Source: an uncultured Prevotellaceae bacterium (GTDB lineage: Bacteria > Bacteroidota > Bacteroidia > Bacteroidales > Bacteroidaceae). Taken from it: a DNA stretch of 64,000 nt. Positions 6,353 through 54,939 of this stretch are shown here, one piece after another. The DNA lies in the NCBI GenBank assembly GCA_900316355.1, contig ONCQ01000001.1:1-64000 (forward strand). The letters are read 5' to 3'. The notes under the pieces were generated by a model. It worked only from the letters and a program-made list of their open reading frames with translations. It was not told the origin of the DNA and did no database searches. The translations under genes and the position numbers were made by a program. Position 1 is the first letter of the stretch. Each line of letters opens with the position of its first letter.

Positions 6353-7633
6353 TTAGAACATCGTGCGCACGCGGTTGATGCCAGCAACAAGGGCATCAAC
6401 ATCTTCTTTTGTATTGTAGAGGGCGAAACTGGCGCGCACGGTGCCCTCGATGCCGAGGCGGTGCATGAGGGGTTCGGCGCAGTGGTGCCCTGTGCGCACG
6501 GCGATGCCGAGGCGGTCCAAGAGGGTGCCGAGGTCGAGGTGATGGATGAAAGGCCCCCTCCCAGCCTCCCCGGAGGAGGGAGCAGCGATGTTGAAGGAGA
6601 TGACAGGACTCGGGGCGGGTCCGTAAATATGCATACCCTCGATTTGCATGAGTTGTTCATAGGCATAAGTGCCCAGCTCATGCTCGTATTCTGCTATCTT
6701 GTTCATGCCAATACCGCTGACGAAGTCGAGGGCTACGGCGAGACCGCGGGCAGCGACATAGTCGGGGGTGCCGGCCTCAAACTTGTAGGGCAGGACATTG
6801 AACGTCGTGTGCTCGAAGCTGACCTTGCCGATCATCTCGCCGCCACCCATATAAGGCGGCAGCTTCTCCAGCCATTCCTCCTTGCCATAAAGGACTCCGA
6901 TGCCGGTGGGGCCATAAACCTTATGGCCGCTGAAGGCGAGGAAGTCACAGTCGAGGTCCTGCACATCGACAGCCATGTGGGGCACGCTCTGGGCGGCGTC
7001 AATGAGCACGGGCACGCCGTGGGCGTGCGCCATCGCAATGATGTCCTTCACGGGGTTCACGGTGCCGAGGACGTTGCTGACATGGGTGCAGGCCAGCAGC
7101 TTGGTGTTGGGCGAGAAGAGCGTGGGAAGCACGTCGAGGTCGAGGCGGCCGTCGTCGGTGATGGGGCACACCTTGATTTTAATGTCCTTGCGCATCTGCA
7201 ACAGCTGCCAGGGGACGATGTTGGAGTGGTGCTCCATCTCCGTGACGATGACCTCGTCGCCCGGCTGCATACAGGCCTGACCAAAGGTGGCTGACACGAG
7301 GTTGATGCCCTCGGTGGTGCCGCGTGTGAAGATGATTTCAGCGGTGGAATGGGCATTTATGAACGCCCTTACTGTCTCGCGTGCCTCCTCGTAGAGGCGT
7401 GTAGCCTCCTGCGAGAGGTAGTGGACACCACGGTGCACGTTGGCGTTGACATTCAGGTACTCTTCGGTGATGGCATCGATGACGCATTGCGGTTTCTGCG
7501 TCGTGGCACCGTTGTCGAGATAGACGAGCGGCTTGCCGTAGATTTGGCGAGATAATATAGGGAAAGACCCACCCCCGACCCCTCCCGTGAGGGAGGGGAG
7601 GGGCTGGCGCAAAGATTCTATATCTTGTTTCAT
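6353..7633 (-). CDS. sufS: SufS-type cysteine desulfurase
   Basis: A group II PLP-dependent desulfurase of 426 residues that takes sulfur from cysteine for Fe-S cluster assembly. The PLP lysine is K238 in FSGHKVYG and the catalytic cysteine is C385 in RTGHHCAEPL. Two segments are foreign to the family and are encoded by GC-rich palindromic repeats. One is the stretch [16 protein letters not shown] near residues 9-25. The other is APSSGEAGRGPF, about residues 350-361, just before the active-site cysteine loop. The gene is separated by about 19 kb from sufC/sufD, whereas suf genes are commonly clustered. ruvB ends 6 bp upstream, so the two genes may be co-transcribed. Confidence 0.93.
   Translation of the reverse strand: MKQDIESLRQPLPSLTGGVGGGSFPILSRQIYGKPLVYLDNGATTQKPQCVIDAITEEYLNVNANVHRGVHYLSQEATRLYEEARETVRAFINAHSTAEIIFTRGTTEGINLVSATFGQACMQPGDEVIVTEMEHHSNIVPWQLLQMRKDIKIKVCPITDDGRLDLDVLPTLFSPNTKLLACTHVSNVLGTVNPVKDIIAMAHAHGVPVLIDAAQSVPHMAVDVQDLDCDFLAFSGHKVYGPTGIGVLYGKEEWLEKLPPYMGGGEMIGKVSFEHTTFNVLPYKFEAGTPDYVAARGLAVALDFVSGIGMNKIAEYEHELGTYAYEQLMQIEGMHIYGPAPSPVISFNIAAPSSGEAGRGPFIHHLDLGTLLDRLGIAVRTGHHCAEPLMHRLGIEGTVRASFALYNTKEDVDALVAGINRVRTMF
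6551..6585. repeat. GC-rich palindromic repeat inside sufS (single arm)
   Basis: A C-rich run followed by its G-rich complement (CCTCC...AGGAGG) codes, on the minus strand, for a Pro/Ser/Gly-rich insert in SufS. It resembles one arm of the paired repeats found elsewhere in the window. Confidence 0.6.
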
Positions 7634-7695
7634 GGGCTTTTAGTCAAACTGCAGGGTTAACTCCCCTCCCTCACGGGAGGGGTTGGGGGTGGGTC
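7566..7695. repeat. paired inverted GC-rich palindromic repeat across the sufS/ruvB junction
   Basis: The left arm (from 7566, GACCCACCCCC...) contains CCCCTCCC-GTGA-GGGAGGGG (7579-7598). The right arm (to 7695, ...GGGGGTGGGTC) contains the inverse, CCCCTCCC-TCAC-GGGAGGGG (7663-7682). The arms lie in the start of sufS and the end of ruvB, and the short spacer holds the ruvB stop and sufS start codons. Both arms are translated in frame. Confidence 0.85.
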
Positions 7696-8704
7696 TGCCC
7701 AAGTGCTCATAGGCCAAATCCGTCACCTCGCGGCCACGGGGTGTGCGCTTGATGAAGCCCTCCTTGATGAGGAAGGGTTCATAGACTTCTTCGACAGTAC
7801 CCGGGTCTTCGCCGATGGCCGTAGCGATGGTGGTGATGCCTACGGGGCCACCCTTGAACTTATCGATGATGGCCAGGAGGATCTTGCGGTCGATGAGGTC
7901 GAGGCCGTGGCGGTCGATGTTCAGGGCCTCGAGGGCATACTTGGCGATTTCGAGGTCGATGCGGCCGTTGCCCTTGACCTGTGCGAAGTCGCGCACACGG
8001 CGCAGCAGGGCATTGGCGATACGTGGCGTGCCGCGTGAGCGTCCCGCTATCTCCGCTGCCGCCGCCTCGTCGATGGGCTGTCCCAGGATGCTGGCGGAGC
8101 GCAACACGATGCCTCGCAAGGTTTCGGCATCATAATATTCAAGATGCAGGTTGATGCCGAAGCGGGCGCGCAGGGGAGCCGTGAGCAGACCGCTGCGCGT
8201 GGTGGCACCCACGAGCGTGAAGGGATTCAGGTCAATCTGTATGGAGCGCGCACTGGGGCCGCGGTCAATCATGATGTCGATGCGGTAGTCCTCCATGGCC
8301 GAGTAGAGGTACTCCTCCACGACGGGTGACAGACGGTGGATCTCATCGATGAACAGCACATCCTGCGGCTCCAGAGAGGTGAGGATGCCGGCCAGGTCGC
8401 CCGGCTTGTCGAGCACGGGGCCGCTGGTAATCTTGAAGCCCACGCCCAGCTCGTTCGCAATGATATTGGAGAGCGTCGTCTTTCCCAGTCCCGGTGGGCC
8501 GTGCAACAACGTGTGGTCCAGCGGTTCGCCGCGATAGCGGGCGGCCTCCACGAAGACCTTCAGGTTCTGCACCACCTGTGCCTGACCAGCGAAATCCTGG
8601 AAGTGGAGGGGGCGCAGGGCGTTCTCGAAGTCGGAGCTCCCCCCCTGCCCCTCCTTCGGGGGAAGCGGCGTAGAGTGTATTAAGCTATTAAGTTCTTGGT
8701 CCAC
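7640..8704 (-). CDS. ruvB: Holliday junction branch-migration DNA helicase RuvB
   Basis: This 354-residue AAA+ ATPase is the motor that drives branch migration with RuvA. Walker A is GPPGLGKT (69-76), Walker B ends in D120-E121-I-H, the sensor region has GATTRSG, and the C-terminal winged helix contains RTPRGREVT. The core is normal, but both ends carry repeat-coded residues: [11 protein letters not shown] near residues 12-22 and [11 protein letters not shown] near the C-terminus. Both ends are exposed in known RuvB structures, so such extensions may be tolerated (inference). A divergent promoter region separates it from the Rid-family gene. Confidence 0.96.
8635..8670. repeat. GC-rich palindromic repeat in the 5' part of ruvB
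   Basis: A C-rich run, a TTCG turn and a G-rich run form a single arm like those in the paired elements. On the minus strand it codes for the Pro/Gly-rich N-terminal extension of RuvB. Confidence 0.65.
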
Positions 8705-8813: not shown

Positions 8814-10007
8814 ATGGATTACACGCTGATTCCATACCCGCAGATAGGCGTTTCGGTAGAGCTGTCCACCTTCCATATCAAGGATGGCCTCACGGAACAT
8901 CACGCGATTCTCCACGTAGAACCGCGCGGTGAACTGTTTGCACAGCAGTTCGCCCGCCTGCAGCAGGCTGAGGAGGCGCTGCTACAGGACGCTGCCTGTG
9001 ACGGCGCCCAGGTGGTCTTCAAGCGCTACTTCCTCAGCGATGCCACGAACCAAGCCTCAGCCCTCATCCCTCAACCCTCATCCCTCAGCCCTCATCCCTT
9101 CCCAACGCTCCCCTTCAGGGGGCTCGGGGGCTCCTCAGCCGTCAGCTACATCCAGCAGCCTCCCCTCGACGGCTCGAAGGTAGCTGTCTGGCTCTACCTC
9201 GTCCACGGCATGGACGTAGAGAACCACGACGGCCTCGTCATTGCCCGCCACAACGGCTATGAGCACCTGTGGAAGATGGGGATGTGCGTCCCCGAGGGCG
9301 ACAGCGCCCAGCAGACCACTACCCTGCTGCAACAGTATGAGGATCTTCTGCAGCGCCATGGTGCCACGTTGGCCGACAACTGCATCCGCACCTGGTTCTA
9401 TGTCCGTGATGTCGATACCCAATATGCGGGCATGGTGAGGGCGCGCCGCGAGAACTTCGCGGCAAAAGGGCTAACGAAAAACACCCATTTCATCGTCTCC
9501 ACAGGCATCGGAGGATCGCCTGCCGACACCAAAGCATTGGTACAATTGGGCACCTATGCCCTGGTGGGCTTCGCGCCCGAGCAGCAGCGCTACCTCTATG
9601 CCAAGACACACCTCAACCCCACCTACGAATATGGTGTCACCTTTGAGCGCGGCACCACCATCAGCTACGGCGACCGCAGCCACGTCTTTATCAGCGGCAC
9701 AGCCAGCATCAATAATAAAGGTGAGGTGGTGCATGTGGGGGACATCGTGAAGCAGACCCATCGCATGTGGGAGAATGTGGAAGCGCTCCTGAAGGAAGCT
9801 GACGCCAGCTTCGATGATGTGGCACAAATCATCGTCTATCTGCGTGACATCGGTGACTACGCTGTCGTGAAGCAGCTCTTCGACGCGCGCTTCCCCGGCA
9901 TCCCCTGCGTCATCACCCTCGCGCCCGTCTGCCGTCCCACATGGCTCATCGAGATGGAGTGCATCGCCATCAAAGCGGTCAGGAATCCGCTATTCAAAGC
10001 GTTCTGA
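8814..10007 (+). CDS. Rid/YjgF-superfamily protein, chorismatase (FkbO/Hyg5)-like
   Basis: The 397-residue protein ends in a YjgF/Rid-like domain with VAQIIVYLRDIGDYAVVKQLF and a conserved ITLAPVCRPTWLIEMECIA. Its middle part (IRTWFYVRDVDTQYAGMVRARREN) resembles the FkbO/Hyg5 chorismatase and Rid-fusion group. Such proteins act on imines, or hydrolyse chorismate, as cytoplasmic enzymes; which applies here is not clear. About residues 83-108 are not family sequence. They come from a tandem 13-nt repeat (CCCTCATCCCTCA-like) followed by a palindromic repeat whose 32 bp are identical, inverted, to a site in ybeY. The insertion keeps the frame. Confidence 0.72.
   Translation: MDYTLIPYPQIGVSVELSTFHIKDGLTEHHAILHVEPRGELFAQQFARLQQAEEALLQDAACDGAQVVFKRYFLSDATNQASALIPQPSSLSPHPFPTLPFRGLGGSSAVSYIQQPPLDGSKVAVWLYLVHGMDVENHDGLVIARHNGYEHLWKMGMCVPEGDSAQQTTTLLQQYEDLLQRHGATLADNCIRTWFYVRDVDTQYAGMVRARRENFAAKGLTKNTHFIVSTGIGGSPADTKALVQLGTYALVGFAPEQQRYLYAKTHLNPTYEYGVTFERGTTISYGDRSHVFISGTASINNKGEVVHVGDIVKQTHRMWENVEALLKEADASFDDVAQIIVYLRDIGDYAVVKQLFDARFPGIPCVITLAPVCRPTWLIEMECIAIKAVRNPLFKAF
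9059..9132. repeat. tandem CCCTCATCCCTCA-like repeat plus palindromic repeat inside the Rid gene
   Basis: About three 13-nt units (9059-9098) run into a palindromic repeat (9101-9132). The last 32 bases are the exact reverse complement of 26024-26055 in ybeY. The whole tract is translated. Confidence 0.8.
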
Positions 10008-10074: not shown

Positions 10075-11322
10075 ATGTTTCAATCTTTCAATTTAGATAA
10101 CGGTCTTCGCGTCATCCTGGCCCCCTCGTCCACGGATGTCGTCTATGCCGGCATTGCCGTGGCCACCGGCACGCGCCATGAGCTGGACAGCGAGAGCGGC
10201 ATGGCGCACCTCGTGGAGCACATGACCTTCAAGGGCACGGAGCGCCTCACATCCATGCAGATCCTGAACCGCATGGAGAGCGTGGGCGGCGACCTCAACG
10301 CCTACACGGGCAAGGAAGAAACTATCTACTATGCCACCTTCCTGCGCCAGCACCTGAAGCGCGCCATCCCCCTGCTCCTGGACATCGTCTTCAACAGCAC
10401 CTTCCCCCAGGAGGAACTCGACAAGGAGGTGGAGGTGGTCATCGACGAGATTGAGAGCTACAACGATTCGCCTGCTGAACTCATCTACGACGACTTCGAA
10501 GCCCTCCTCTTTCCCGACCACCCTCTCGGACGCAGCATCCTTGGCGATGCCGAGCGCCTGCGGCAGTACCGCACATCCGACCTTCAAGCCTTCGCCCGCC
10601 GCACCTACAGCCCCGAGCGTGCCGTGCTGTTTATAAAAGGAAATGTTAAGATAGACCCACCCCCCTGCCCCTCCCTTGTAGGGAGGGGAGTAAGTACCTT
10701 TGAGAATGAGAATGCGGATGCCTGCTTGAAACATACTACTCCCCTCCCTACAAGGGAGGGGCAGGGGGGTGGGTCTTTTGTTTATAAAAAGCCCGTCCAC
10801 CAAACCCACGTCATGCTCGGCGCGCGGGCCTATGCCGCCACCGATCCGCGCTACTATGGCCTGCTGCTGTTGAGCAACCTGCTCGGCGGACCGGCGATGA
10901 ACTCCCGCCTCAGTCTCGCCCTGCGCGAGCGCACGGGTCTCGTCTATACCGTGGAGAGCAACCTCACCGCCTACACCGACACTGGGGTGTGGTCTGTCTA
11001 TTTCGGCTGTGATGCTGAGGATCTGAAGCGCTGCCTGCGTCTCGTACACCGTGAGCTGCGCCGCCTCATCGACCGTCCCCTCAGCCCCCGCGCCCTCAAC
11101 GCCGCCAAGCAACAGCTCCTGGGACAGCTCGGCATCAGCTACGACCATTTTGAGAACGTAGCCCTCGCGATGGCCAAGCGGTACCTCCACTACCACCGCG
11201 TCCTCACACCCGTCGAAATCGCCCAATCCATCGAGGCTCTCACTGCAGAAACTCTCCACTCCATCGCCGCCGACATCTTCAACCCCGACCGCCTCACCAC
11301 CCTCATCTATCAACCCGAGTAA
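10075..11322 (+). CDS. M16 family zinc metallopeptidase (pitrilysin/processing-peptidase type)
   Basis: The inverted zinc motif H45-L-V-E48-H49 is present, with the downstream ligand E125 in VVIDEIES exactly 76 residues after H49. The C-terminal half has the usual GGPAMNSRLSLALRERTGLVY stretch in two parts. At about 415 residues it is the single-unit form that dimerises. No signal peptide is visible. A paired palindromic repeat adds about 41 residues (roughly 194-234), between the catalytic domain end (LFIKGNVK) and KKPVHQTHVMLG. Removing it would leave a normal family protein. The insert has no stop in this frame. A strong terminator follows. Confidence 0.93.
   Translation: MFQSFNLDNGLRVILAPSSTDVVYAGIAVATGTRHELDSESGMAHLVEHMTFKGTERLTSMQILNRMESVGGDLNAYTGKEETIYYATFLRQHLKRAIPLLLDIVFNSTFPQEELDKEVEVVIDEIESYNDSPAELIYDDFEALLFPDHPLGRSILGDAERLRQYRTSDLQAFARRTYSPERAVLFIKGNVKIDPPPCPSLVGRGVSTFENENADACLKHTTPLPTREGQGGGSFVYKKPVHQTHVMLGARAYAATDPRYYGLLLLSNLLGGPAMNSRLSLALRERTGLVYTVESNLTAYTDTGVWSVYFGCDAEDLKRCLRLVHRELRRLIDRPLSPRALNAAKQQLLGQLGISYDHFENVALAMAKRYLHYHRVLTPVEIAQSIEALTAETLHSIAADIFNPDRLTTLIYQPE
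10654..10775. repeat. paired inverted GC-rich palindromic repeat (MITE-like) inside the M16 gene
   Basis: Arms 10654-10690 and 10739-10775 are near-perfect inverted copies of about 37 nt (outer GACCCACCCCC / GGGGGTGGGTC). Each contains an inner CCCTCCC-(TTGTA or TACAA)-GGGAGGG hairpin. The spacer is about 48 bp. An 11-bp direct repeat TGTTTATAAAA lies at 10628-10638 and 10779-10789, near both ends, and might be a trace of duplication during insertion. Confidence 0.88.
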
Positions 11323-11377: not shown

Positions 11378-11925
11378 TATAGGTAGAGGATAGACTCGGG
11401 ACCCATGTTGAAGAGGAGGTCGAGGATGGAGAGGTCGGGGAGGAAACCGAGGCGGGGGGCAAAGACCTGATAGTAGGGGTGGGGTGTGCCGTCTGGCTGG
11501 AGGCGGCGCTGCGAAGGGGGCACAGGTTGTGTGATGTCGAGGAGGCGGCAAACGACCTCGTGGAGGGCGGCATTGAAATCGATGAGGTAGTCGTGGGTTC
11601 GCGAGGCGAAGAAGGGGGAAAACTCATCGGCATAATACTCGAAGAAAGGACTCTTGCCATAGGCCGTGCGCAGAGCGTTCCAGTGGTGGTGGCGCCAGTT
11701 GCCGTGCTCGCTGATGCGTATTTCGCGCATCGCCACATGGCTCGATGCGGCCTCGACAGGGATAATCAGGTGCTGAGGGCCGTCGGGCATGGCGATGGTA
11801 CAGCGGTTGCGGATGGTCTGCTTGACATAGTGCTCGGCGGTGTCAATGACCACCTCACCGCCCGTGAGGAGGGTGGTGTGGTACTGCTGGTACCAAGAGA
11901 TGGGAGCGAGGTAGGCGGTTGTCAT
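11377..11925 (-). CDS. WbqC family protein
   Basis: A 182-residue protein beginning MTTAYLAPISWYQQY, with later motifs ISEHGNWRHHHWNALRTAYGKSPFFEYY that are typical of the WbqC family. Members are found near polysaccharide biosynthesis genes and are suspected to help modify sugars, but the reaction is not settled. ATG 11925 overlaps the upstream methyltransferase stop by 4 bp (ATGA), which fixes the start and implies translational coupling. A longer upstream reading frame exists but is arginine/proline-rich shadow sequence. A terminator hairpin begins at the stop codon. Confidence 0.85.
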   Translation of the reverse strand: MTTAYLAPISWYQQYHTTLLTGGEVVIDTAEHYVKQTIRNRCTIAMPDGPQHLIIPVEAASSHVAMREIRISEHGNWRHHHWNALRTAYGKSPFFEYYADEFSPFFASRTHDYLIDFNAALHEVVCRLLDITQPVPPSQRRLQPDGTPHPYYQVFAPRLGFLPDLSILDLLFNMGPESILYL

Positions 11926-13199
11926 CTGACTTTGAGGAGGAGTTTGGTGCCGTCGGAGAGGGTGGTGGCGATGAGGTGGGTATTGCCGCCTTCGCGGAGG
12001 TGGAGCTGCTTGCGGAGAGAGGCGACGGACATGGGGAAACCACGCACGGTAAGGTCGGCGGCATCGACACCGGCAAGAAGACGGCGCAAATCTGACTTGC
12101 TGAAAGAACTGACATCGTCTATTCTCCAACTGCGTCCTGGAAAGTCGGGAATGGGAGTGTTAGAGACGTAGAGGTGTGAGTGCTGCGCGAGCTTGTGAAC
12201 AGGGAAGCGCTGGCAGATGGTCTTGAAGGCACCAGCCTTGAGGATGGAGGGGTTGGGCTCGTAAAGTCCCTCCCCTAACCCCTCCCCTGTTAGGGAGGGG
12301 GACTTTATCAGAGAGGGGAGTAGATAGTCTTGGGGAGTGGAATGCTCTTCGGCGAGGGTGAAGGTGAAGGAGGATCTCAGCAGGGAGGAGGGGTTGGAGG
12401 ACGCAACCAAATCGACGCAATGGATGGGTATATGGTCATAGTCCGTTTGCTGCGCAACACTCGCATCACCGCCTTGCATCACGAGCAGGAGCTCCTTGCA
12501 TTCGCCATCGACGCTGACGACGTGGACATCTGTGATGCCGCGCAGGGCGCGCAGGGCAGCCACGATGTCGAGCATGGGAGAGAGCTTGATGAGCGTGTAG
12601 GCGGCATGGCGGCGCAGCTGTTCCTGAAGGGCGCAAACATCGGGCGTGCAATCCTCGATGAGGGCCACTTTGCGGCCTGCGGCATCGCGACGTGCGGGGT
12701 CGATGAGCAGGACGGTGCCTGCGGTAGCAGGCTCCCCAGACAGGATGTCCTCCGCCTCGCCGCAGACGACCTCCGCTGCGGGCAGTCCCACGAGTGGCAG
12801 GTTGTGACGCACGACGGCACAGAGGTCTGCGTTACGCTCGACATAAACGGCACGGCTGAAGAGCGGTGCCAGGGTCATGAAGTCGATGCCGAAGCCGCCG
12901 GTGAGGTCAATAAAATTGACAATGGACAATGGACAATGGACAATGGACAATTGTTCAAGGAGGTGGCGCTTGTAGAGGGCGGTGGCTTCGCTGGAACACT
13001 GCTCCAGGCTGAGGCGCGGGGGATAAAGGATGCCGTCAGTGGCTGCCAGCAAGGGAAGCTTACGGGCGGCCAACTGACGGCCTTCTATCTGTGTCAGCGC
13101 TTCACGCAAGTTGACATCCGCAGGCACACGGCCTAACGCCAGCTGGCGCACATCGTCGTCGGCGTGTTCACGGATGAAAGCCTGCGTAGCATCAGTCAT
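11922..13199 (-). CDS. class I SAM-dependent methyltransferase with THUMP-like C-terminal domain
   Basis: The 425-residue protein has SAM-binding motif I DLTGGFGID (about 98-106) and motif IV DPARR, followed by a C-terminal region typical of the THUMP-like domain. This points to an RNA methyltransferase, but the target is unknown. Two kinds of repeat are inserted in frame. One is an ACAATGG tandem repeat giving LSIVHCPLSIVN just before motif I. The other is a GC-rich palindrome giving SLIKSPSLTGEGLGEGL near residue 305. Its start overlaps the upstream thioredoxin gene by 8 bp and its stop overlaps wbqC. Confidence 0.83.
   Translation of the reverse strand: MTDATQAFIREHADDDVRQLALGRVPADVNLREALTQIEGRQLAARKLPLLAATDGILYPPRLSLEQCSSEATALYKRHLLEQLSIVHCPLSIVNFIDLTGGFGIDFMTLAPLFSRAVYVERNADLCAVVRHNLPLVGLPAAEVVCGEAEDILSGEPATAGTVLLIDPARRDAAGRKVALIEDCTPDVCALQEQLRRHAAYTLIKLSPMLDIVAALRALRGITDVHVVSVDGECKELLLVMQGGDASVAQQTDYDHIPIHCVDLVASSNPSSLLRSSFTFTLAEEHSTPQDYLLPSLIKSPSLTGEGLGEGLYEPNPSILKAGAFKTICQRFPVHKLAQHSHLYVSNTPIPDFPGRSWRIDDVSSFSKSDLRRLLAGVDAADLTVRGFPMSVASLRKQLHLREGGNTHLIATTLSDGTKLLLKVR
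12263..12306. repeat. GC-rich palindromic repeat in the methyltransferase gene
   Basis: Outer AAAGTCC/GGACTTT ends enclose C-rich and G-rich runs. The 44-nt palindromic unit is translated as a Gly/Pro/Ser-rich loop of about 15 residues. Confidence 0.75.
12912..12951. repeat. tandem ACAATGG repeat in the methyltransferase gene
   Basis: Four perfect ACAATGG units plus partial flanks (AATTG... at one end, ...CAATTG at the other) lie directly before the SAM-binding motif and are translated. Confidence 0.85.
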
Positions 13200-34007: not shown

Positions 34008-36776
34008 TTACCGCCGCCAGAAGGCCCAGGCGATGAGGGCGATGAGGAGGAGGGCGAGGGCGATGAGGGCGGTGTTGGCGATGGCCTCGGTGGTGTGGAG
34101 GCTCTGCGGGTCGAAGCGGAAGGTGATCTGATGCTTGCCGGCGGGAATGACGACGGCGCGCAGGACGTAGTCGGCACGCAGGATGGGGGCGGGCTCACCG
34201 TCGATGGTGCACTGCCAGCCGGGGTAGTAGATGTCGGAGAAGACGGCCAAGCGCTCGCGGTCGGTCTCGGCCTCGAAGGTGAGGGCGTTGGCTTCGTAGG
34301 AGGTGAGGGTGATAGCTGAGGCCCCCCTTACGGCCCCCGAGGGGGCTTCTGTTGTGTCGCTATCTGATGGCTGAGGTGCCGTGTCCCCCTCGGGGGACGA
34401 TAGGGGGGCCACCCCTCCTGAACTAATCAATGCGTCGGGGAGTTGGTCGCGGAAGCGGACATCGACGGCGGCGGTGTGGCGGGGATTGATGGAGGAGAGG
34501 AGGGAGAGCTCTTCGTCGGCATTGGCGACGAGGAACACGTTATCGACAAACCAGGCGTTGCCCATCGCCCACGGGTTCTGCACGGGCACGGTCTCGCCGC
34601 CTTGCAGGGGCAGGATGGCGTACTTGGTGTTGAGCATGTTCAGCACGGGGAAGAGGCTGTCGCCGGCGATGCTGTCGAGGCGTCCATTGGTCTCGGCGAC
34701 GGCTTTGTAGAGGGTCGCGAGCTGCGGCTGGATGTGGGCTTCGATGAGCTCCTGGTAGCGGCGCAGCTTGGCGGCGTGGTAGCCGCCGATGCTCTTGTGC
34801 CAGTAGGAGGTGGTGTTGTCGTTGAAGGTGTTCACGGCGAGGTTCACGACGCGGTAGTAGAGGTCGCTGTCCTGCAGGATGGCCTCGTCGGTGGGTGTCT
34901 TCTGGAAGAACTGCTGTGCGGGCTGGGGCTTGGAGAACATGGCGTCGTTGAGGTAGCGCTTGTTGACATCCCACATATCGGCGGTGCAGAGCACGATGAG
35001 GCAGGCGACCATTGCCCACGCCTTGATCTTCTTATAATGGTACGCGATGAGCACGGCGCAGCCGACGAGGATGATGAGGAGCGAGCGTCCGGCATCGGCG
35101 GTGAAGACGGCGCGCCGCATATCGTTGAGGTTGCGCAGGATGTCGGCGAGCATGTCGGCGGGGATATAGCCCTGTGCCACGGCATTGTTGAGCATCTCGG
35201 CCTCGGAGCTGCTGACGTAGTTGCCGAAGAAGACGTCGGGCATGAGCCAGAAGAGCAGGCAGGGGCCGGCGGTGAGCGCGAGAGCCCCCCACCAACTCCC
35301 CCCAAGGGGGGAGAGCTTCGATGCTGTTGGGGACACCTCCCCCTTGGGGGAGGATGGGAGGGGGCTGACTATCTCTTTCAATGCGAGCATTGCGAGCAGG
35401 GGGATGGTGAACTCGGCGATGACGAGGATGGAGGCGACGGTGCGGAACTTGTCGTACATGGGGACATAGTCCAGCCACAGGTCGGTCCACGGCATGAAGT
35501 TCTTACCCCATGCGAGGGTGATGCTGAGGACGGTGGCGATGAAAAGCGCCCATTTCATCGGACCCTTGACGATGAAGAGGCCGAGGATGAAGAGGAACAT
35601 CACGAAGGCGCCGACATAGACGGGGCCGCTGGTGCCGGGCTGCTCGCCCCAGTACTGCCCGAGGCTCTGATAGACGGGCATATAGGTGGGGTTGGCCTTG
35701 GCCATGGCCGTCGTGCTCTGTGTGAGGGGTTGGCTGGCGCCGCCCTTGACATTGGGGATGAGCAGCGACCATGTCTCGCCGATGCCATAGCTCCAGGCGG
35801 TGATGTAGCTGCGCTCCAGTCCACTGCTGGTCTGGTCGGAGGGGTCTGCTGTCTTCTGTGTCAGCTCGCTCTTCCCGCGCATCGACTCCTTGGAGTACTC
35901 CCATGTGTGGTAGAGATTGGAGACGTTGACGGCGATGCCGATGAGGCAGCCAAGGGCGAAGACGGCAGTCGCTTTCATCCAGCGCAACCAAGAGGGGGCC
36001 CCCTCTACGGCCCCCGAGGGGGCTTCTGTTGTTTTGCTGTTAGAGGACTTTGCATCCGTGTCCCCCTCGGGGGACGACAGGGGGGCCATAGCCACTGCCA
36101 TCAGCACCATCACGAAGCCGAAGTAGTAGGTCATCTGGATGTGGTTCGACAGGATCTGCAGGGCCATGAAGACGGCGGTGACGAGGAGTCCCCAGCCGTA
36201 GCGGCCGCGGTAGCAGAGCACCATGCCGGCGATGGTGGGCGGGATGTAGGCCAGCGTGTAAAACTTCCAGATATGGCCTGCACCTATTATAATAAAGTAG
36301 TAGCTGGAGAACGCCCAGAGGACGGCACCCAGCGCTGCCATCCACGCCTTGAAGTCGAAGGCGCGCAGCAGGATGTAGAAACCCAGGAGCATGATGAACA
36401 CCAGCACGACATAGTCCGGCAGCCACAGCTTATAGACGCTCTCCACCTTCGAGAGTTTCTCGGTAGAGGGGTAAGAGGGCGCCATCTGATAGGTGGGCAT
36501 ACCCGAGAACAGCGTGTTGGTCCAGCGCGTGCGCTCGCCATCATGGCTCTTGCGGTAGGCCTCCATCTCCGAGGATGCGCCGGCACCGCCGCTGTGGTCG
36601 TGGCCCGTCAGCACCAGCCCTTCGGAGGCGGGCTTGGCGAAGTAGGCGAAGGAGAGGGCTACGAAGAAGAGGATGGCGAGGAGGTCGGGGAGGAGGGAAG
36701 ATACCCAGCGGACTCTCCCCCCGCCCTCCCTATCAGGGAGGGAGCTGTTACTATTTGACAGGTTGTTATTGCTCAT
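34008..36776 (-). CDS. YfhO-family multi-pass membrane protein with four repeat-coded inserts
   Basis: The 922-residue protein has many transmembrane helices (e.g. LLAILFFVALSFAYFA, VVLVFIMLLGFYILLRAF) and the large YfhO-like loop GHDHSGGAGASSEMEAYRKSHDGERT. It ends with a beta-rich periplasmic domain and a last helix. YfhO proteins are GT-C-like and are linked to glycosylation of surface polymers in Bacillus; the role in Bacteroidetes is unclear. Four palindromic repeats are translated: one at the N-terminus (SSLPDREGGGRV) and three internal. Two of those encode the similar peptide APLSSPEGDT...TTEAPSGAV. The inserts fall between hydrophobic segments. ATG 36776 was chosen over an upstream repeat-coded frame. 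Confidence 0.85.
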   Translation of the reverse strand: MSNNNLSNSNSSLPDREGGGRVRWVSSLLPDLLAILFFVALSFAYFAKPASEGLVLTGHDHSGGAGASSEMEAYRKSHDGERTRWTNTLFSGMPTYQMAPSYPSTEKLSKVESVYKLWLPDYVVLVFIMLLGFYILLRAFDFKAWMAALGAVLWAFSSYYFIIIGAGHIWKFYTLAYIPPTIAGMVLCYRGRYGWGLLVTAVFMALQILSNHIQMTYYFGFVMVLMAVAMAPLSSPEGDTDAKSSNSKTTEAPSGAVEGAPSWLRWMKATAVFALGCLIGIAVNVSNLYHTWEYSKESMRGKSELTQKTADPSDQTSSGLERSYITAWSYGIGETWSLLIPNVKGGASQPLTQSTTAMAKANPTYMPVYQSLGQYWGEQPGTSGPVYVGAFVMFLFILGLFIVKGPMKWALFIATVLSITLAWGKNFMPWTDLWLDYVPMYDKFRTVASILVIAEFTIPLLAMLALKEIVSPLPSSPKGEVSPTASKLSPLGGSWWGALALTAGPCLLFWLMPDVFFGNYVSSSEAEMLNNAVAQGYIPADMLADILRNLNDMRRAVFTADAGRSLLIILVGCAVLIAYHYKKIKAWAMVACLIVLCTADMWDVNKRYLNDAMFSKPQPAQQFFQKTPTDEAILQDSDLYYRVVNLAVNTFNDNTTSYWHKSIGGYHAAKLRRYQELIEAHIQPQLATLYKAVAETNGRLDSIAGDSLFPVLNMLNTKYAILPLQGGETVPVQNPWAMGNAWFVDNVFLVANADEELSLLSSINPRHTAAVDVRFRDQLPDALISSGGVAPLSSPEGDTAPQPSDSDTTEAPSGAVRGASAITLTSYEANALTFEAETDRERLAVFSDIYYPGWQCTIDGEPAPILRADYVLRAVVIPAGKHQITFRFDPQSLHTTEAIANTALIALALLLIALIAWAFWRR
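34320..34410. repeat. paired inverted palindromic repeat in yfhO (91 bp, copy A)
   Basis: Inverted arms GGCCCCCC...CCCCCGAGGGGG and CCCCCTCGGGGG...GGGGGGCC enclose a spacer. It has the same length as and strong similarity to 35997-36087, and is translated in the same frame. Confidence 0.85.
35283..35366. repeat. paired inverted palindromic repeat in yfhO (84 bp, copy B)
   Basis: Arms begin AGCCCCCC and end GGGGGCT. Each contains a CTCCCCC-AAGG-GGGAG type hairpin. Translated as a Pro/Ser/Gly-rich segment between two membrane helices. Confidence 0.8.
35997..36087. repeat. paired inverted palindromic repeat in yfhO (91 bp, copy C)
   Basis: Near-copy of 34320-34410 in the same orientation. Both arms and part of the spacer (TCTGTTGT) are alike. 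Confidence 0.85.
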
Positions 36777-36778
36777 AG

Positions 36779-36835
36779 ATGGTGATGAATGAGGAATGAC
36801 GAATGATGAATGACGAATGATGAATGACGAATGGT
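36779..36835. repeat. tandem GAATGACGAATGAT-type repeat
   Basis: About four imperfect 14-nt units lie upstream of the yfhO start. The same GACGAATGA word appears in the gene tails at 27.4 and 30.2 kb and near 32.36 kb. Confidence 0.8.
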
Positions 36836-36851
36836 TTTTCTCTTGAAAACA

Positions 36852-36889
36852 AAAGTGAGAAGTACTACTTGGCGAGCACTTCTCACTTT
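36852..36889 (-). terminator. rho-independent terminator of rpsO
   Basis: A perfect 12-bp stem (36852-36863 with 36878-36889) and 14-nt loop. On the minus strand it is followed by TGTTTTC. Confidence 0.75.
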
Positions 36890-36959
36890 GATAAGATCTC
36901 ACTTCTTGAAAAGTGACCGCTCCCTCCCTGATAGGGAGGGCGGGGGGAGAGTCTGCTTT

Positions 36960-45939: not shown

Positions 45940-46190
45940 AAAACCCTGCGGGGTTCGATGAGGGGGCTCTATTGTCTGCAAGCTTACCCTCTATAGTGTC
46001 TGCGCGTAGTCTCTATAGAGGGTTAGGCAAGGGAGTAGTAGTGTCTTTCATGTGGGGTTAGAATTCACAGAGTCTGTGAAGCATTGGCTCAGAAGTAATG
46101 TGGTGTGCGCATGAAAAGTGTTAAGAAATGTTTTTTCTTAAGAGGAGTTTTTTCACTTTTCACTTTTCATTCTTCCCTTTTCATTTATTA
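45940..46190. other. non-coding gap before typA
   Basis: Holds a 10-bp inverted repeat CCCTCTATAG (45987-45996) / CTATAGAGGG (46013-46022) that could form a second hairpin. Further on are TTTTTCACTTTTCACTTTTC-type short repeats (46149-46185). I see no gene. Confidence 0.6.
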
Positions 46191-46194
46191 TGCG

Positions 46195-46202
46195 TACCTT
46201 TG
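46195..46202 (+). promoter_or_regulatory. -7 element for typA
   Basis: TACCTTTG, 20 nt before the ATG at 46223. It overlaps a longer reading frame, which argues that the upstream ATG at 46190 is not used. Confidence 0.55.
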
Positions 46203-46222
46203 CAGCCGAAAAACAGTCACGT

Positions 46223-48028
46223 ATGAAGCAGAACATTAGAAATATCGCCATCATCGCACACGTCGATCATGGCAAGACGACGCTGGTGGACAAGATGCTG
46301 CTGGCCGGCAACCTGTTCCGCGAGAACCAGCAGACGGGAGAGCTGATGCTGGACAACAATGAGCTGGAGCGCGAGCGCGGCATCACCATCCTCTCCAAGA
46401 ACGTCAGCATCAACTACAAGGACACGAAAATCAACATCATCGACACCCCGGGTCACAGCGACTTCGGCGGCGAGGTGGAGCGTGTGCTCAACATGGCCGA
46501 CGGCTGCCTGCTGCTGGTCGATGCCTTCGAGGGCCCGATGCCGCAGACGCGTTTCGTGTTGCAGAAGGCCCTGCAAATCGGCTTGAAGCCCATCGTGGTC
46601 ATCAACAAGGTGGATAAGCCCAACTGCCGCCCCGAGGAGGTGTATGAGATGGTCTTCGACCTGATGTGCGACCTCGACGCCACCGAGGAGCAGCTGGACT
46701 TCCCCGTCATCTACGGCTCTGCCAAGCAGGGCTGGATGGGCGAGGACTGGCAGACGCCCACGGACAATATCTTCTACCTGCTCGACCAGATTCTGGAGCA
46801 CATCCCCGCTCCCGAGCAGCTGGAAGGCACGCCGCAGATGCTCATCACCTCGCTGGACTACAGCACCTATACGGGCCGCATCGCCGTGGGTCGCGTACAC
46901 CGCGGCACCCTGAAGGAGGGTATGGCCATCACCATCGCACACCGCGACGGCTCGAAGGAGCGCACGAAGATCAAGGAGCTGCACACCTTCACGGGCATGG
47001 GCCATCAGAAGACCGACGCCGTCAGCTCGGGCGACATCTGCGCCATCATAGGCCTCTCGAACTTCGAGATCGGCGACACCATCTGCGATGCCGAGGAGCC
47101 GGAGGCACTGCCCACCATCAGCATCGATGAGCCCACGATGTCGATGCTCTTCACCATCAACGACTCGCCGTTCTTCGGCAAGGAGGGTAAGTGGTGCACG
47201 AGCCGCCATATCCACGAGCGCCTGCAGAAGGAGCTGGAGAAGAACCTGGCGCTGCGCGTGGAGATGCCCGAGGGCGCCACAGACCGCTGGATTGTCAGCG
47301 GCCGCGGCGTGCTGCACCTGAGCGTGCTCATCGAGACCATGCGCCGCGAGGGCTACGAACTGCAGGTGGGACAGCCGCAGGTGATTTATAAGGAGATCGC
47401 CGGCGAGCGCTGCGAGCCCATCGAGGAGCTGACTATCAACGTGCCCGAGGAGTTTGCCTCGAAGATGATTGATATGGTCACGCGCCGCAAGGGTGAGATG
47501 ACCTCTATGGAGAGCCAGGGCGACCGTGTGAACATCGAGTTCCTCATCCCCTCGCGTGGCATCATCGGTCTGCGCACCAACGTGCTCACGGCCTCGCAGG
47601 GCGAAGCCATCATGGCACACCGCTACAAGGAGTACCAGCCCTACAAGGGCGAGATCGTGCGCCGCACGTCGGGCTCCATGATCGCGCTGGAGGGCGGCAC
47701 CGCCTTCGCCTACGCCATCAACAACCTGCAGGACCGCGGTAAGTTCTTCATCGAACCGCAGACCGAGGTGTATGCCGGACAGGTGGTGGGCGAGCACATC
47801 CACGAGAACGACCTCGTCATCAACGTCACCAAGAACAAGCAGCTCACGAACATGCGTGCCAGCGGCTCCGACGAGAAGGTGCGCATCATCCCCGCCACGC
47901 TCCTCAGCCTCGAAGAAGCCCTCGAATACATCAAGGAGGACGAGTACGTGGAGGTGACCCCCAAGAGCATGCGCATGCGCAAAATCATCCTCGACCACCT
48001 GGAGCGCAAGCGTGCGAACCGTGAATAG
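46223..48028 (+). CDS. typA: ribosome-associated GTPase TypA/BipA
   Basis: A translational GTPase of 601 residues with G1 AHVDHGKTT (12-20), G3 [13 protein letters not shown]4 NKVDKP, EF-G-like domains and a typical BipA C-terminus ([18 protein letters not shown]). It binds ribosomes and aids assembly and stress adaptation. The ATG at 46223 lies 20 nt after the promoter and matches the family start. A paired palindromic repeat follows the stop codon without touching the gene. Confidence 0.96.
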
Positions 48029-48031
48029 GAA

Positions 48032-48180
48032 GACCCTCCCCCCTGCCCCTCCCTTGTAGGGAGGGGAGTGATTACCTTTCAAGAACCGCTATTATTTAAC
48101 AATCATTAAAAATGGCCCTATAACCTCCATTGCTCAAAGCATTTTACTCTCCCCCTACAAGGGGGAGCGGGGAGGGGGTC
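48032..48180. repeat. paired inverted palindromic repeat between typA and the zinc-peptidase gene
   Basis: Arms 48032-48068 (GACCCTCCCCCC..., inner CCCTCCC-TTGTA-GGGAGGG) and 48148-48180 (inner CCCCC-TACAA-GGGGG, ending GGGGGTC) are inverted copies. The outer and inner sequences match the element inside the M16 gene. It fills the whole intergenic gap. Confidence 0.88.
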
Positions 48181-48187
48181 TTATCTT

Positions 48188-49066
48188 ATGGACCTAACCG
48201 GAAGAAGACAGAGCTCCAACGTCGATGACCGTCGGCGCATGAGCGGCGGTGCAAAAGCCGGCATCGGCGGCATCGCGGGTGTGATCATTGCAGTGGTGTT
48301 TGCCTATCTCACGGGCGGCAACCCGCTGGAGGCCGGCATGCAGGCCTTCCAACAGTCGCTGGGAGCTAACACCGAGATGAGCGCCACGCAGGAGCGTGAG
48401 TTCACCGAGGAGGAACAGGCGCTGGCCGTCTTCGCCTCGCAGGTGCTGGCCAGCACGGAGGACGTGTGGACGGAGGTGTTCAAGACACAGCTGGGCAAGA
48501 CCTATGTGCCGCCCAAGATGGTGCTCTACACGGGTAGCGTGCAGACGGGCTGCGGCGCTGGCAACGCGCAGGTCGGGCCATTCTACTGCTCGGCAGACCA
48601 GGCGCTATACATCGACCTCTCGTTCTTCTCGGATATGAAGAAGACGCTGGGTGCCGACGGCGACTTCGCCTATGCCTACGTCATCGCCCACGAGGTGGGA
48701 CACCACGTGCAGCACCTCCTCGGCACCCTCGACAGCGCCCACAGCCAGATGGCTAAGATGAGCGAGACGCAGGCCAACAAGGTCAGCGTGCGCATCGAGC
48801 TGCAGGCCGACTTCTACGCCGGCGTGTGGGGTTACCACGAGGGCAAGACCTTCGGCTCCCTCGAGGACGGCGACCTGCAGGAGGCCATCCAGTGCGCGCA
48901 GGTCATCGGCGACAACTACCTGCAGGAGAAAGCCCGCGGCTACTCGCAGCCCGAGAGCTTCACCCACGGCACCAGCGCCCAGCGCATGAAATGGCTGAAA
49001 CTCGGACTCAACACCGGTGACATGCGCCGCGGCGACACCTTCAGCCTAAGCGAAAGCCAGCTGTAA
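48188..49066 (+). CDS. YpfJ-like neutral zinc metallopeptidase
   Basis: The 292-residue protein matches the putative neutral zinc metallopeptidase family (zinicin-like; YpfJ). It starts with MDLTGRRQSSNVDDRR, has one membrane helix (AGIGGIAGVIIAVVFAYL), and carries H168-E-V-G-H172 in AHEVGHHVQHLLG. The third part includes ELQADFYAGVWGYH, the usual downstream ligand region. It is likely anchored in the inner membrane with the catalytic domain outside. The natural substrate is unknown. It is flanked on both sides by paired palindromic repeats. Confidence 0.92.
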   Translation: MDLTGRRQSSNVDDRRRMSGGAKAGIGGIAGVIIAVVFAYLTGGNPLEAGMQAFQQSLGANTEMSATQEREFTEEEQALAVFASQVLASTEDVWTEVFKTQLGKTYVPPKMVLYTGSVQTGCGAGNAQVGPFYCSADQALYIDLSFFSDMKKTLGADGDFAYAYVIAHEVGHHVQHLLGTLDSAHSQMAKMSETQANKVSVRIELQADFYAGVWGYHEGKTFGSLEDGDLQEAIQCAQVIGDNYLQEKARGYSQPESFTHGTSAQRMKWLKLGLNTGDMRRGDTFSLSESQL

Positions 49067-49205
49067 AGCCCCCTCCCTGCTCCCCCAAGGGGGAGTGATA
49101 GGAAATGTACTAAAGACCATAAAACATATATTATATGAATAATCAACAATCTCCAAAAGTAACTTCCAATCCCCTCCCCCTTGGGGGAGGCCGGGAAGGG
49201 GCTTT
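49065..49205. repeat. paired inverted palindromic repeat across the ypfJ/metG junction
   Basis: Arms begin AAAGCCCCCTCCC (49065) and end AAGGGGCTTT (to 49205), each with an inner CTCCCCC-AAGG/TTGG-GGGAG hairpin. The left arm starts in the ypfJ-like stop codon. The metG ATG is in the spacer and the right arm is translated as MetG residues 11-24. Confidence 0.86.
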
Positions 49206-51252
49206 CAAGCGCACTACAGTGACGTCGGCGCTGCCGTATGCCAATGGCGGCGTGCATATCGGACATTTGGCAGGCGTGTATGTGCCTGCGGACATATATG
49301 TGAGGTACCTGCGCCTGAAGGGCGAGGACGTGATGTTCATCGGCGGCTCGGACGAGCACGGCGTGCCCGTGACACAGCGCGCCCGCAAGGAAGGCATCAC
49401 GCCGCAGCAGGTGGTGGATCGCTACCACAAGATGATCAAGGACTCGTTCGAGGAGTTCGGCATCTCGTTCGACGTGTATAGCCGCACCACCTCGAAGACC
49501 CACCACCAGTTCGCCAGCGACTTCTTCCGCAAGCTCTACGACGACGGCAAACTCATCGAGAAGACCACGAAGCAGTTCTACGACGAGACGACGGGCACCT
49601 TCAAGACCGACCGCGACATCGTGGGCGAATGTCCCCACTGCCACGCAGAGGCCAACGGCGACCAATGCGAGAAATGCGGTCGCGATCTGGACCCCACGGA
49701 GCTCATCAACCCGCGCTCGAAGGAGAGCGGCGCCAAGCTCATCCTGAAGGACACCACGAACTGGTTCCTGCCCCTCAACGACTACGAGGGCTGGCTCAAG
49801 GAGTGGATTCTTGAAGGCCACAAGGAATGGCGCTCCAATGTCTATGGCCAGTGCAAGTCGTGGCTCGACATGGAGCTGCAGCCGCGTGCGATGACGCGCG
49901 ACCTGGACTGGGGCATCCCCGTGCCGGTGGAAGGCGCTGACGGCAAGGTGCTCTATGTGTGGTTCGACGCGCCCATCGGCTATATCTCCAATACCAAGGA
50001 ATTGTGCGAGAGCAACCCCGAACGCTGGGGCACATGGCAGCGCTGGTGGCAGGACGAGGAGACGCGTTTAGTCCATTTCATCGGCAAAGACAACATCGTG
50101 TTCCACTGCATCATCTTCCCCGTGATGATGAAGGCGCACGGCGGTTATATCATGCCCGACAACGTGCCGGCCAACGAGTTCCTGAACCTCGAAGGTGACA
50201 AAATCTCCACCTCCCGCAACTGGGCTGTTTGGTTGCACGAGTACCTCGTAGATTTCCCCGGCAAGCAGGATGTACTGCGCTACGCCCTCACCGCCTCGGC
50301 ACCCGAGACGAAGGACAACGACTTCACATGGGCTGAGTTCCAGGCACGCAACAACAACGAGCTGGTGGCCGTCTATGGCAACTTCGTGAACCGCGCCCTG
50401 CAGCTGACGCAGAAATACTACGACGGCGTGGTGCCCGCCTGTGGCGAGCTCACCGATTTCGACCGCCAGACGATTGCCGAGTTCACCGACGTGAAGGCCA
50501 AGGTGGAAGCCTTGCTCGACAACTTCAAGTTCCGCGATGCGCAGAAGGAAGCCATGAACCTGGCGCGCATCGGTAACAAATACCTGGCCGACAGCGAGCC
50601 CTGGAAGGTCATCAAGACCGACCCCGAGCGCGTGAAGACCATCATCAACATATCCCTCCAGCTGACCGCCAACCTGGCCATCGCCTTCGAGCCCTTCCTG
50701 CCGTTCTCTTCGAAGAAGCTGTACGGAATGCTCAATGTGGAGGCGCTGGGATGGGACAACCTCGGCAGCACGGCGCTGCTGAAGGCTGGCCACCAGCTGG
50801 CGAAGCCCGAGTTGCTCTTCGAGAAGATCGAGGATGAGGCCATCCAGGCACAGATGGACCGCCTGGCACGCATCAAGAAGGAGAACGAAGCCGCCAGCTA
50901 TCAGGCCGCTCCCGTGAAGCCCAACGTCAGCTTCGAGACGTTCGAGAAGCTCGACATCCGCGTGGGACTCATCAAGGACTGCCAGAAGGTGAAGAAGAGC
51001 AAGAAGCTCCTGCAGTTCACCATCGACGACGGCACAGGCACAGACCGCACCATCCTCTCGGGCATTGCCGCCTTCTATGAGGACCCGTCGGTGCTCGTCG
51101 GCAAGCGCATCCTTTTCGTGGCCAACTTCGAGCCGCGCCAGATGATGGGCATCGAGAGCCAGGGCATGATCCTGTCAGCCGTAGATTTCGACGAAAGCCT
51201 CAGCGTGGTGACGACCACGAAGGACGTGAAGCCCGGCAGTCAAGTGGGCTAG
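49135..51252 (+). CDS. metG: methionyl-tRNA synthetase with C-terminal tRNA-binding domain
   Basis: A class I aminoacyl-tRNA synthetase of 705 residues with HIGH (in [10 protein letters not shown]), a CxxC zinc knuckle pair (CPHCH ... CEKCG), a KMSKS variant (GDKISTSRN) and a C-terminal Trbp111-like OB-fold ([14 protein letters not shown] ... [11 protein letters not shown]). It charges tRNA-Met. The first 24 residues ([14 protein letters not shown] and surroundings) are foreign and come from the palindromic repeat; the family sequence begins at [14 protein letters not shown]. The spacing leaves no other obvious ATG start, so the extension is probably translated. Confidence 0.96.
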
Positions 51253-54821: not shown

Positions 54822-54939
54822 TTTAAGGATTTAAAGATTTTATATTTAAGGATTTGCCTCACAATACGCAATCATCAAATATTCAAATCAGCCACTAAAT
54901 CCTTTAATCGTTAAATCATTAAATCTTTAAACGAAAGAG
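54822..54939. repeat. TTTAAGGATT/TTAAATC short-period repeats between subunits A and B
   Basis: Imperfect units such as ATTTAAGGATTT and AATCNTTAAA repeat across the gap. No promoter motif is seen, so the operon probably reads through. Confidence 0.7.

Follow-up and report, generated by a model that had tools for sequence, protein, structure and literature searches.

What are the GC-rich paired palindromes that lie in and between the genes of this uncultured Prevotellaceae bacterium, and what moves them? The gene for an M16 family peptidase (10075..11322, + strand) raises the question: an A-type paired palindrome at 10653..10776 lies in frame in the linker between its two M16 domains, where it encodes DPPPCPSLVGRG...TTPLPTREGQGGGS. 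The nearest named relatives of this gene come from MAGs, several rumen-derived, that carry the label uncultured Prevotellaceae, Bacteroidaceae or Bacteroidales; judged by these, the host is a rumen Prevotellaceae/Bacteroidaceae MAG and need not be a Prevotella. The gene forms part of the window, the whole 64-kb stretch of DNA analysed here, in which a sequence-only reading had listed eight such elements. The main new result of our analysis is a link, overlooked in that reading, between the palindromes and a DUF559 endonuclease.

Build, subfamilies and copy number

All eight listed palindromes were recovered in place by inverted-repeat search, folds and arm search. The shared build that had been proposed for them was confirmed: each arm consists of a C-rich foot and its own C/T-rich hairpin (for example CCCCTCCC-TTGTA-GGGAGGGG), and the outer feet pair mutually. 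When the whole window was scanned for inverted repeats, the top six pairs were six of the eight elements, with arms of 26–49 nt that are 81–100% complementary; five further pairs of 22–28 nt, 71–82% complementary, came next. The elements at 48032–48180 and 49065–49205 have gapped arms and fell outside the first six of the scan, and were detected by folding and arm search. Their fold energies are −70 and −65 kcal/mol, and those of all eight range from −53 to −132 kcal/mol (native sequences only).

We named subfamilies A to F after foot and loop: A (foot GACCC[AT]CCCCCCTG, loop TTGTA), B (GACCCACCCCCGA, loop GTGA), C (GACTCTCCCCCCG), D (GGCCCCCC, CCCCCGAGGGGG), E (AAAGCCCCCTCCC) and F (AGCCCCCCACC). 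Besides the A-type pair in the M16 gene, the window holds a B-type pair (GACCCACCCCCGA with CCCCTCCC-GTGA-GGGAGGGG) at the ruvB/sufS junction (7565..7696). The gene for a YfhO-family membrane protein (34008..36902, − strand) is host to three in-frame elements, of D type (34320..34410), F type (35283..35366) and D type (35997..36087), and to a 243-bp C-type element at its 5′ end (36711..36953). A pair whose left arm is of A type (48032..48180) is intergenic, between typA/bipA (46190–48028, +) and a zinc peptidase gene (48188–49066, +), and a 141-bp E-type pair (49065..49205) lies at the 5′ end of metG (49135..51252, + strand), the predicted ATG of which, at 49135, is within the element.

The sequence-only reading had also reported single arms in several genes, a list that is mostly unconfirmed by a BLAST search of the window with eight arm sequences as queries (E ≤ 0.05). 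One arm is clear (12264..12300), inside a gene with PG_1098/THUMP-like domains (11922–13199, −), and ruvB has a 15-nt partial match (8640–8654); nothing more was found in sufS and ruvB outside the pair at 7566, and none in the Rid gene (8814–10007).

The genome holds many more copies. Searched with 231 bases around 10653–10776, the 3.16-Mb genome gave 121 BLAST matches, a figure that includes both strands of each palindrome. In this MAG the palindromes form a family of many copies, divided into several subfamilies. The A-type query matched 20 of the 61 genomes searched, namely its own, 18 of 36 from the same genus, and one of 24 in the order's other families, the last with two weak matches.

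Placement and reading frame

The earlier statement that most elements lie inside genes stands in part. Four of the eight are within a gene and open (10654 in the M16 gene; 34320, 35283 and 35997 in yfhO), three only overlap gene ends (7566, 36711 and 49065) and the one at 48032 is intergenic, so that the statement is true only if gene ends are counted. The three gene-end elements each contain a predicted start and/or stop. At the ruvB/sufS junction, the C-terminal tail and stop of ruvB and the predicted start and N-terminus of sufS are element-encoded, both in the window and in the relative G061. Candidate yfhO starts and the N-terminus MSNNNLSNSNSSLPDREGGGRVRW lie within element 36711–36953, where the element-free relative G064 reads MKQLKSLLPDLL. 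In metG, translation from the ATG in the element would give a different N-terminus (28 residues compared) in place of MEKKFKRTT in G064 and MGKNFKRTT in G062 (predicted starts). The start used by these two relatives is lost in the window, and the gene neighbours differ there; in G065 the start of metG is likewise replaced by an unrelated element.

The four gene-interior elements have two to six stop-free frames out of six, so that more than one phase or orientation permits read-through. Insert lengths are in many cases not divisible by three (91, 122, 130), while the net length differences from relatives are. At the M16 site, all 46 lengths, the window's included, agree modulo 3; many of them are native linkers, so the agreement reflects a general conservation of frame. 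For the three yfhO sites, agreement modulo 3 holds in 15 of 16 comparisons, the exception being a partly aligned locus (L204). The combination of odd insert lengths and frame-neutral net lengths means that insertion often involved some loss of target, as where 84 nt replaced 51, or 138 replaced 30.

A survey of 33 paired elements in the own genome, at loci picked around BLAST hits and with a finder that misses D and F types, gave eight that were open in the same frame on both sides, 12 in the same frame with stops, 12 on the same strand in another frame and one with coding sequence on one side only; codon usage could not split interiors from junctions in this set. In the sites compared here, the elements replace linkers in frame and even provide predicted start codons (metG, yfhO, sufS).

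Orthologous sites in relatives

The window sites were compared with those of five relatives, G061–G065 (via L106, L107, L108, L110 and L109); in G061–G063, most long aligned blocks are 85–98% identical to the window. Site 7566 holds the same element in G061 and a different element in G063, and is empty in G062. At the M16 site, G061 has the same element, which is absent from L077, L110 and L112 (71–74% amino-acid identity), and in G063 the element is inverted (95% identity inverted, compared to 78% direct). Site 34320 has the same element in G061, another insert shared by G062 and G063, a C-type element in G064 and none in G065. At 35283, the same element is found in G062, a 51-nt segment in G064 and G065, and AT-rich inserts in G061 and G063. 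Site 35997 is the same in G061, holds other inserts in G062 and G063, and is empty in G064 and G065; at 36711, G064 is without the element. The intergenic site at 48032 is the same in G063, and is occupied by a B-type element in G061, an AT-rich inverted insert in G062 and an unrelated insert in G065.

Orthologues without the insert, for which the sequence-only reading had suggested looking, are found for the M16 gene (L077, L110, L112), yfhO (G064/G065) and the 5′ end of metG (G062/G064), and the same insert is not shared by all distant orthologues. The palindromes thus behave as mobile DNA, with orthologous sites empty, swapped or inverted in close relatives. No target-site duplication was noticed by eye in the 13 printed site comparisons, and no target motif at the compared sites.

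Other observations were made at these sites. The empty ruvB/sufS site of G062 (L107) has an open frame from RuvB to SufS (...AYEHLNLTRTIYGKPLVYLDNG...), possibly a fusion scar or an assembly error. In the M16 interdomain linker, other palindromic elements were seen by eye in at least six compared loci (L079, L082, L109, L111, L135, L144), and short tandem repeats (for example ATAGACTCTATAG units) occur in L081, L085, L114 and L123; extra DNA seems to be accommodated generally in this linker. Several kinds of AT-rich inverted insert (TTTAAGGATTTAAAG..., GTGAAAAGTGAAAG..., AATTGAAAATTG...) are present in the window at 54822–54939, where the insert is 118 bp compared to 6 bp in G061 and G063, and in relatives at sites 35283, 35997 and 48032. 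They occupy gene junctions or the very positions at which other genomes have GC-rich palindromes, and DUF559 was not found in those at the relatives' sites. At one further gene, G061 (C2:61163-61289) and G063 (C10:4929-5118) were seen by eye to have different inverted inserts, each enclosing the start codon and a hydrophobic, signal-peptide-like start, such that the entire N-terminus differs between the two.

A DUF559-bearing parent at metG

In G061 and G063 the metG site holds ~498 bp, in which an open DUF559 gene (encoding 124 aa in L186, from G063) is enclosed by the left and right arms also present in the window. The 141-bp window element aligns with the L186 copy over the leftmost 33 bp (100%) and the rightmost 104 bp (99%), and retains the last codons of the DUF559 gene, 12 residues of the nuclease C-terminus that read as in G061 (49103..49139, + strand). 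By this comparison the 141-bp element is an internal-deletion derivative of the 498-bp DUF559 element. The description of the palindromes as MITE-like gains support here, from a derivative alongside its full-length parent, with the internal-deletion step observed at one site only (metG). The own genome also has a full-length element, on contig C56; it occupies the same locus as in G061, and has therefore not moved since the split from G061.

Association of DUF559 with the arms

We scored the association as the best inverted repeat between the flanks of DUF559 (300 bp, or 350 bp for plasmid records), with a cut-off of ≥18 that was chosen after the first control had been seen. The loci were best-ranked or chosen, not random, and some DUF559 rows are mutual orthologues. 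The cut-off was reached by 28 of 40 DUF559 hits (L186–L265, fragments included), compared to none of 150 random windows from the same loci. In a later set, without a control of its own, 17 of 20 hits reached it and none fell below 15. DUF559 genes were found in 109 of 198 genomes sampled across the Bacteroidota; among the 30 best-scoring loci of this sample, eight scored ≥18 and 22 below, compared to one of 150 controls. Outside the Bacteroidota, we examined 20 plasmid records chosen from 37 with hits. Twelve of the 20 loci scored ≥18 (Deinococcus 4/4, alphaproteobacteria 6/8, cyanobacteria 2/6, gammaproteobacteria 0/2), compared to none of 120 control windows, which cover the first 13 loci. 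Arm-flanked DUF559 genes are thus found in the Bacteroidota, Cyanobacteriota, Deinococcota and Pseudomonadota.

Of 63 Bacteroidota DUF559 domains, 51 have C/T-rich hairpins on each side, compared to five of 400 control windows; the remaining 12 are without hairpins on one or both sides, and three of an initial 66 domains were dropped for short flanks. Each of the A to E arms was seen around a DUF559 gene (A in L256; B in L246 and L318; C in L225 and L324; D in L228 and L326; E in L186). Arm distance tracks nuclease distance (Mantel r = 0.49, 0/5000 permutations) across 39 of 66 domains, those in which an arm pair could be recognised, and within the own genus (r = 0.40 for 26 rows, and r = 0.34 for 25 rows with pairs of >85% identity excluded; 0/5000 for each), shared genome ancestry being included in these correlations. 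In these comparisons the arms and the nuclease are shown to co-occur far beyond chance.

The association by presence and absence is modest. Among 37 same-genus genomes, the own one included, 15 of the 19 with an A-type match have DUF559, compared to 7 of the 18 without a match (Fisher p = 0.020, uncorrected for phylogeny); the A-type genomes without DUF559 (G014, G018, G026 and G027) are MAGs that are 61–84% complete.

Some loci show DUF559 in varied surroundings. On contig C135 of G049, two copies (L226 and L236) lie ~3.4 kb apart and are 94% alike with unlike flanks, which suggests a duplication; the inverted repeats in their own flanks reach scores of only 11 and 14. On Deinococcus plasmids (L302, L349, L352) DUF559 is found at differing positions within the hpa gene cluster, and on Sphingomonas plasmids (L300, L350) between transhydrogenase genes and between sufB and sufC.

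The DUF559 enzyme and its in-frame copies

DUF559 (PF04480) has 15 invariant columns across 24 aligned proteins, including E69, D71 and H75, which we infer from the family to be catalytic. A DUF559 profile matched two PDB entries, 3hrl, an ‘endonuclease-like protein’ (E = 4.8e-32), and 3r3p, a ‘mobile intron protein’ (E = 2.8e-8), which we take to be I-Bth0305I. On sequence grounds DUF559 belongs to the Vsr/EDxHD-type nucleases of the PD-(D/E)XK class. One DUF559 gene has been assigned to the EDxHD family (PMC9403480), and a Caulobacter DUF559 protein is called VsrA (PMC12907096).

Larger proteins of other Bacteroidota contain in-frame DUF559 domains, bordered on either side by apparently arm-encoded peptides. 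The hosts of these domains are MetH, between the two B12 domains (L288, and L294 by the same flanking sequence), leucyl-tRNA synthetase, adjoining the editing domain (L268), the type I restriction protein HsdR (L272) and type ISP and methylase enzymes (L266, L267); in L277, DUF559 follows a glutamine amidotransferase domain.

A proposed mechanism and its alternatives

The paired palindromes are probably short non-autonomous members of a mobile family whose full-length form encodes DUF559. The full-length form would mostly be ~0.5 kb (480–580 bp, some to 0.7 kb), with the DUF559 gene between two inverted arms. DUF559 would recognise its own arm type and cut at or near the arm, or at the target; repair of the break would copy the arm-bounded element in, often deleting some target sequence, and selection would retain those insertions that leave the frame open in linkers or at gene ends. 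We infer that the agent of movement is DUF559.

A different source of movement would be a HuH (Y1) REP-associated tyrosine transposase (RAYT), with the pairs being REP doublets. REPINs have the same build, two inverted hairpin REPs around a spacer, and the own genome has two divergent Y1_Tnp genes, L009 (C34:62097-63431) and L010 (C44:7107-8264, minus strand). In-frame REP insertions are also described within tnpAREP genes of subclass 2.4, among whose hosts are Cyanobacteria and Bacteroidetes (PMC6006769); in-frame behaviour is therefore not unique to the elements here, and it is the enzyme that differs. However, the two own RAYTs lack flanking arms (inverted-repeat scores of 10 and 10 with 900-bp flanks), and the flanking repeats found at four of the relatives' 20 Y1 loci (L065, L066, L070 and L073; scores 23–38) are unlike these arms. 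Y1_Tnp is also unlinked to element presence in the same-genus genomes (7 of 19 compared to 5 of 18, p = 0.73), and the GT[AG]G foot is missing, the feet in the window being GACCC, GGCCC, AAAGCCC, AGCCCC or GACTC. Given the unflanked own RAYTs and the lack of a Y1 association, we rejected RAYT/REPIN as the driver and consider this origin highly unlikely. In the products of L009 and L010, long low-complexity inserts separate the HuH motif from the probable tyrosine motif (GDESKARGDESKARG..., SASLASSSPSSPSS...).

Alternatively, DUF559 could be a passenger or parasite of arms that are spread by host repair or replication template switching. The loss of target on insertion with no duplication noticed, the element flipped in place at the M16 site, and the several kinds of AT-rich inverted inserts at the same sites in relatives would all fit, and part of the site turnover may be a general host process, because these unrelated inserts share the sites. 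The recurrence of DUF559 between arms of many subfamilies in four phyla, judged against random-window controls, argues against a passenger, as do its co-divergence with the arms and its 15 invariant columns, and we give this possibility a small but real chance. That the palindromes are fixed functional structures held by selection, such as terminators or mRNA stabilisers, and not mobile DNA, would suit their very stable predicted hairpins and the position of some at gene ends. This is scarcely credible in view of the presence, absence, swapping and inversion seen at orthologous sites; in addition, four elements lie within reading frames and Rfam, at gathering thresholds, gave no match anywhere in the window.

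Comparison with known systems

The likeness to Rickettsia palindromic elements that the sequence-only reading had drawn was borne out in behaviour, as in-frame insertion in unrelated genes was observed. Those elements are described as palindromes of ~150 bp in frame in unrelated genes (PMC10969869, PMC3733652); the family here differs in its endonuclease-encoding full-length form, its paired C-rich hairpin arms and its Bacteroidales host, and the likeness drawn here is one of behaviour. REPINs and BIMEs with RAYT are reported to share the inverted hairpin repeats in many copies, some of them in frame, and the enzyme gene within its own repeats (PMC6006769, PMC3733652), whereas the enzyme here is a PD-(D/E)XK DUF559 nuclease, not a HuH tyrosine transposase, and the GT[AG]G foot does not occur. 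MITEs are likewise described as short internal-deletion copies of a longer coding element that keep its terminal inverted repeats (PMC10969869). In contrast, the parent here encodes a DUF559 nuclease and no transposase (the transposase search covered Y1_Tnp), and the target is often lost, with no duplication noticed.

EDxHD/Vsr-type homing endonucleases such as I-Bth0305I belong to the same nuclease family as DUF559. They are known from introns and inteins (PMC12350094, PMC9403480), whereas the gene here lies between palindromic arms, with no intron or intein noticed. Yeast mitochondrial GC clusters are also GC-rich palindromes with fast turnover, merging and shuffling, and endonucleases have been proposed as their helpers (PMC4478555). 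They differ in being mitochondrial and mostly intergenic, with short AG/ACT direct-repeat flanks, and no nuclease gene between arms is mentioned in the text consulted (PMC4478555). One report describes recombination hotspots in the form of three repeated segments that contain a transposase and a DUF559 gene (PMC12308824). We found no report of DUF559 between palindromic arms in the open-access papers searched.

Implications

We know of no agreed driver for palindromic repeats within bacterial genes outside RAYT systems, and a nuclease nested between the repeats is a testable candidate. CGTC repeats are reported to have no association with transposase genes (PMC3733652).

More broadly, there may be a widespread class of transposase-free mobile elements, in which a Vsr/EDxHD-type endonuclease gene lies between inverted hairpin arms, occurring in at least four phyla and spreading both itself and nuclease-less palindromes into linkers and gene ends; we regard the chances for and against this as even. 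If true, it would account for many C-rich palindromes and Pro/Gly/Ser-rich inserts in bacterial genes, and would point to a function for DUF559 genes. Such inserts should then be handled as mobile DNA by gene finders and protein databases. It would also offer essential proteins, MetRS among them, a natural means of acquiring new peptide stretches, start codons and N-termini.
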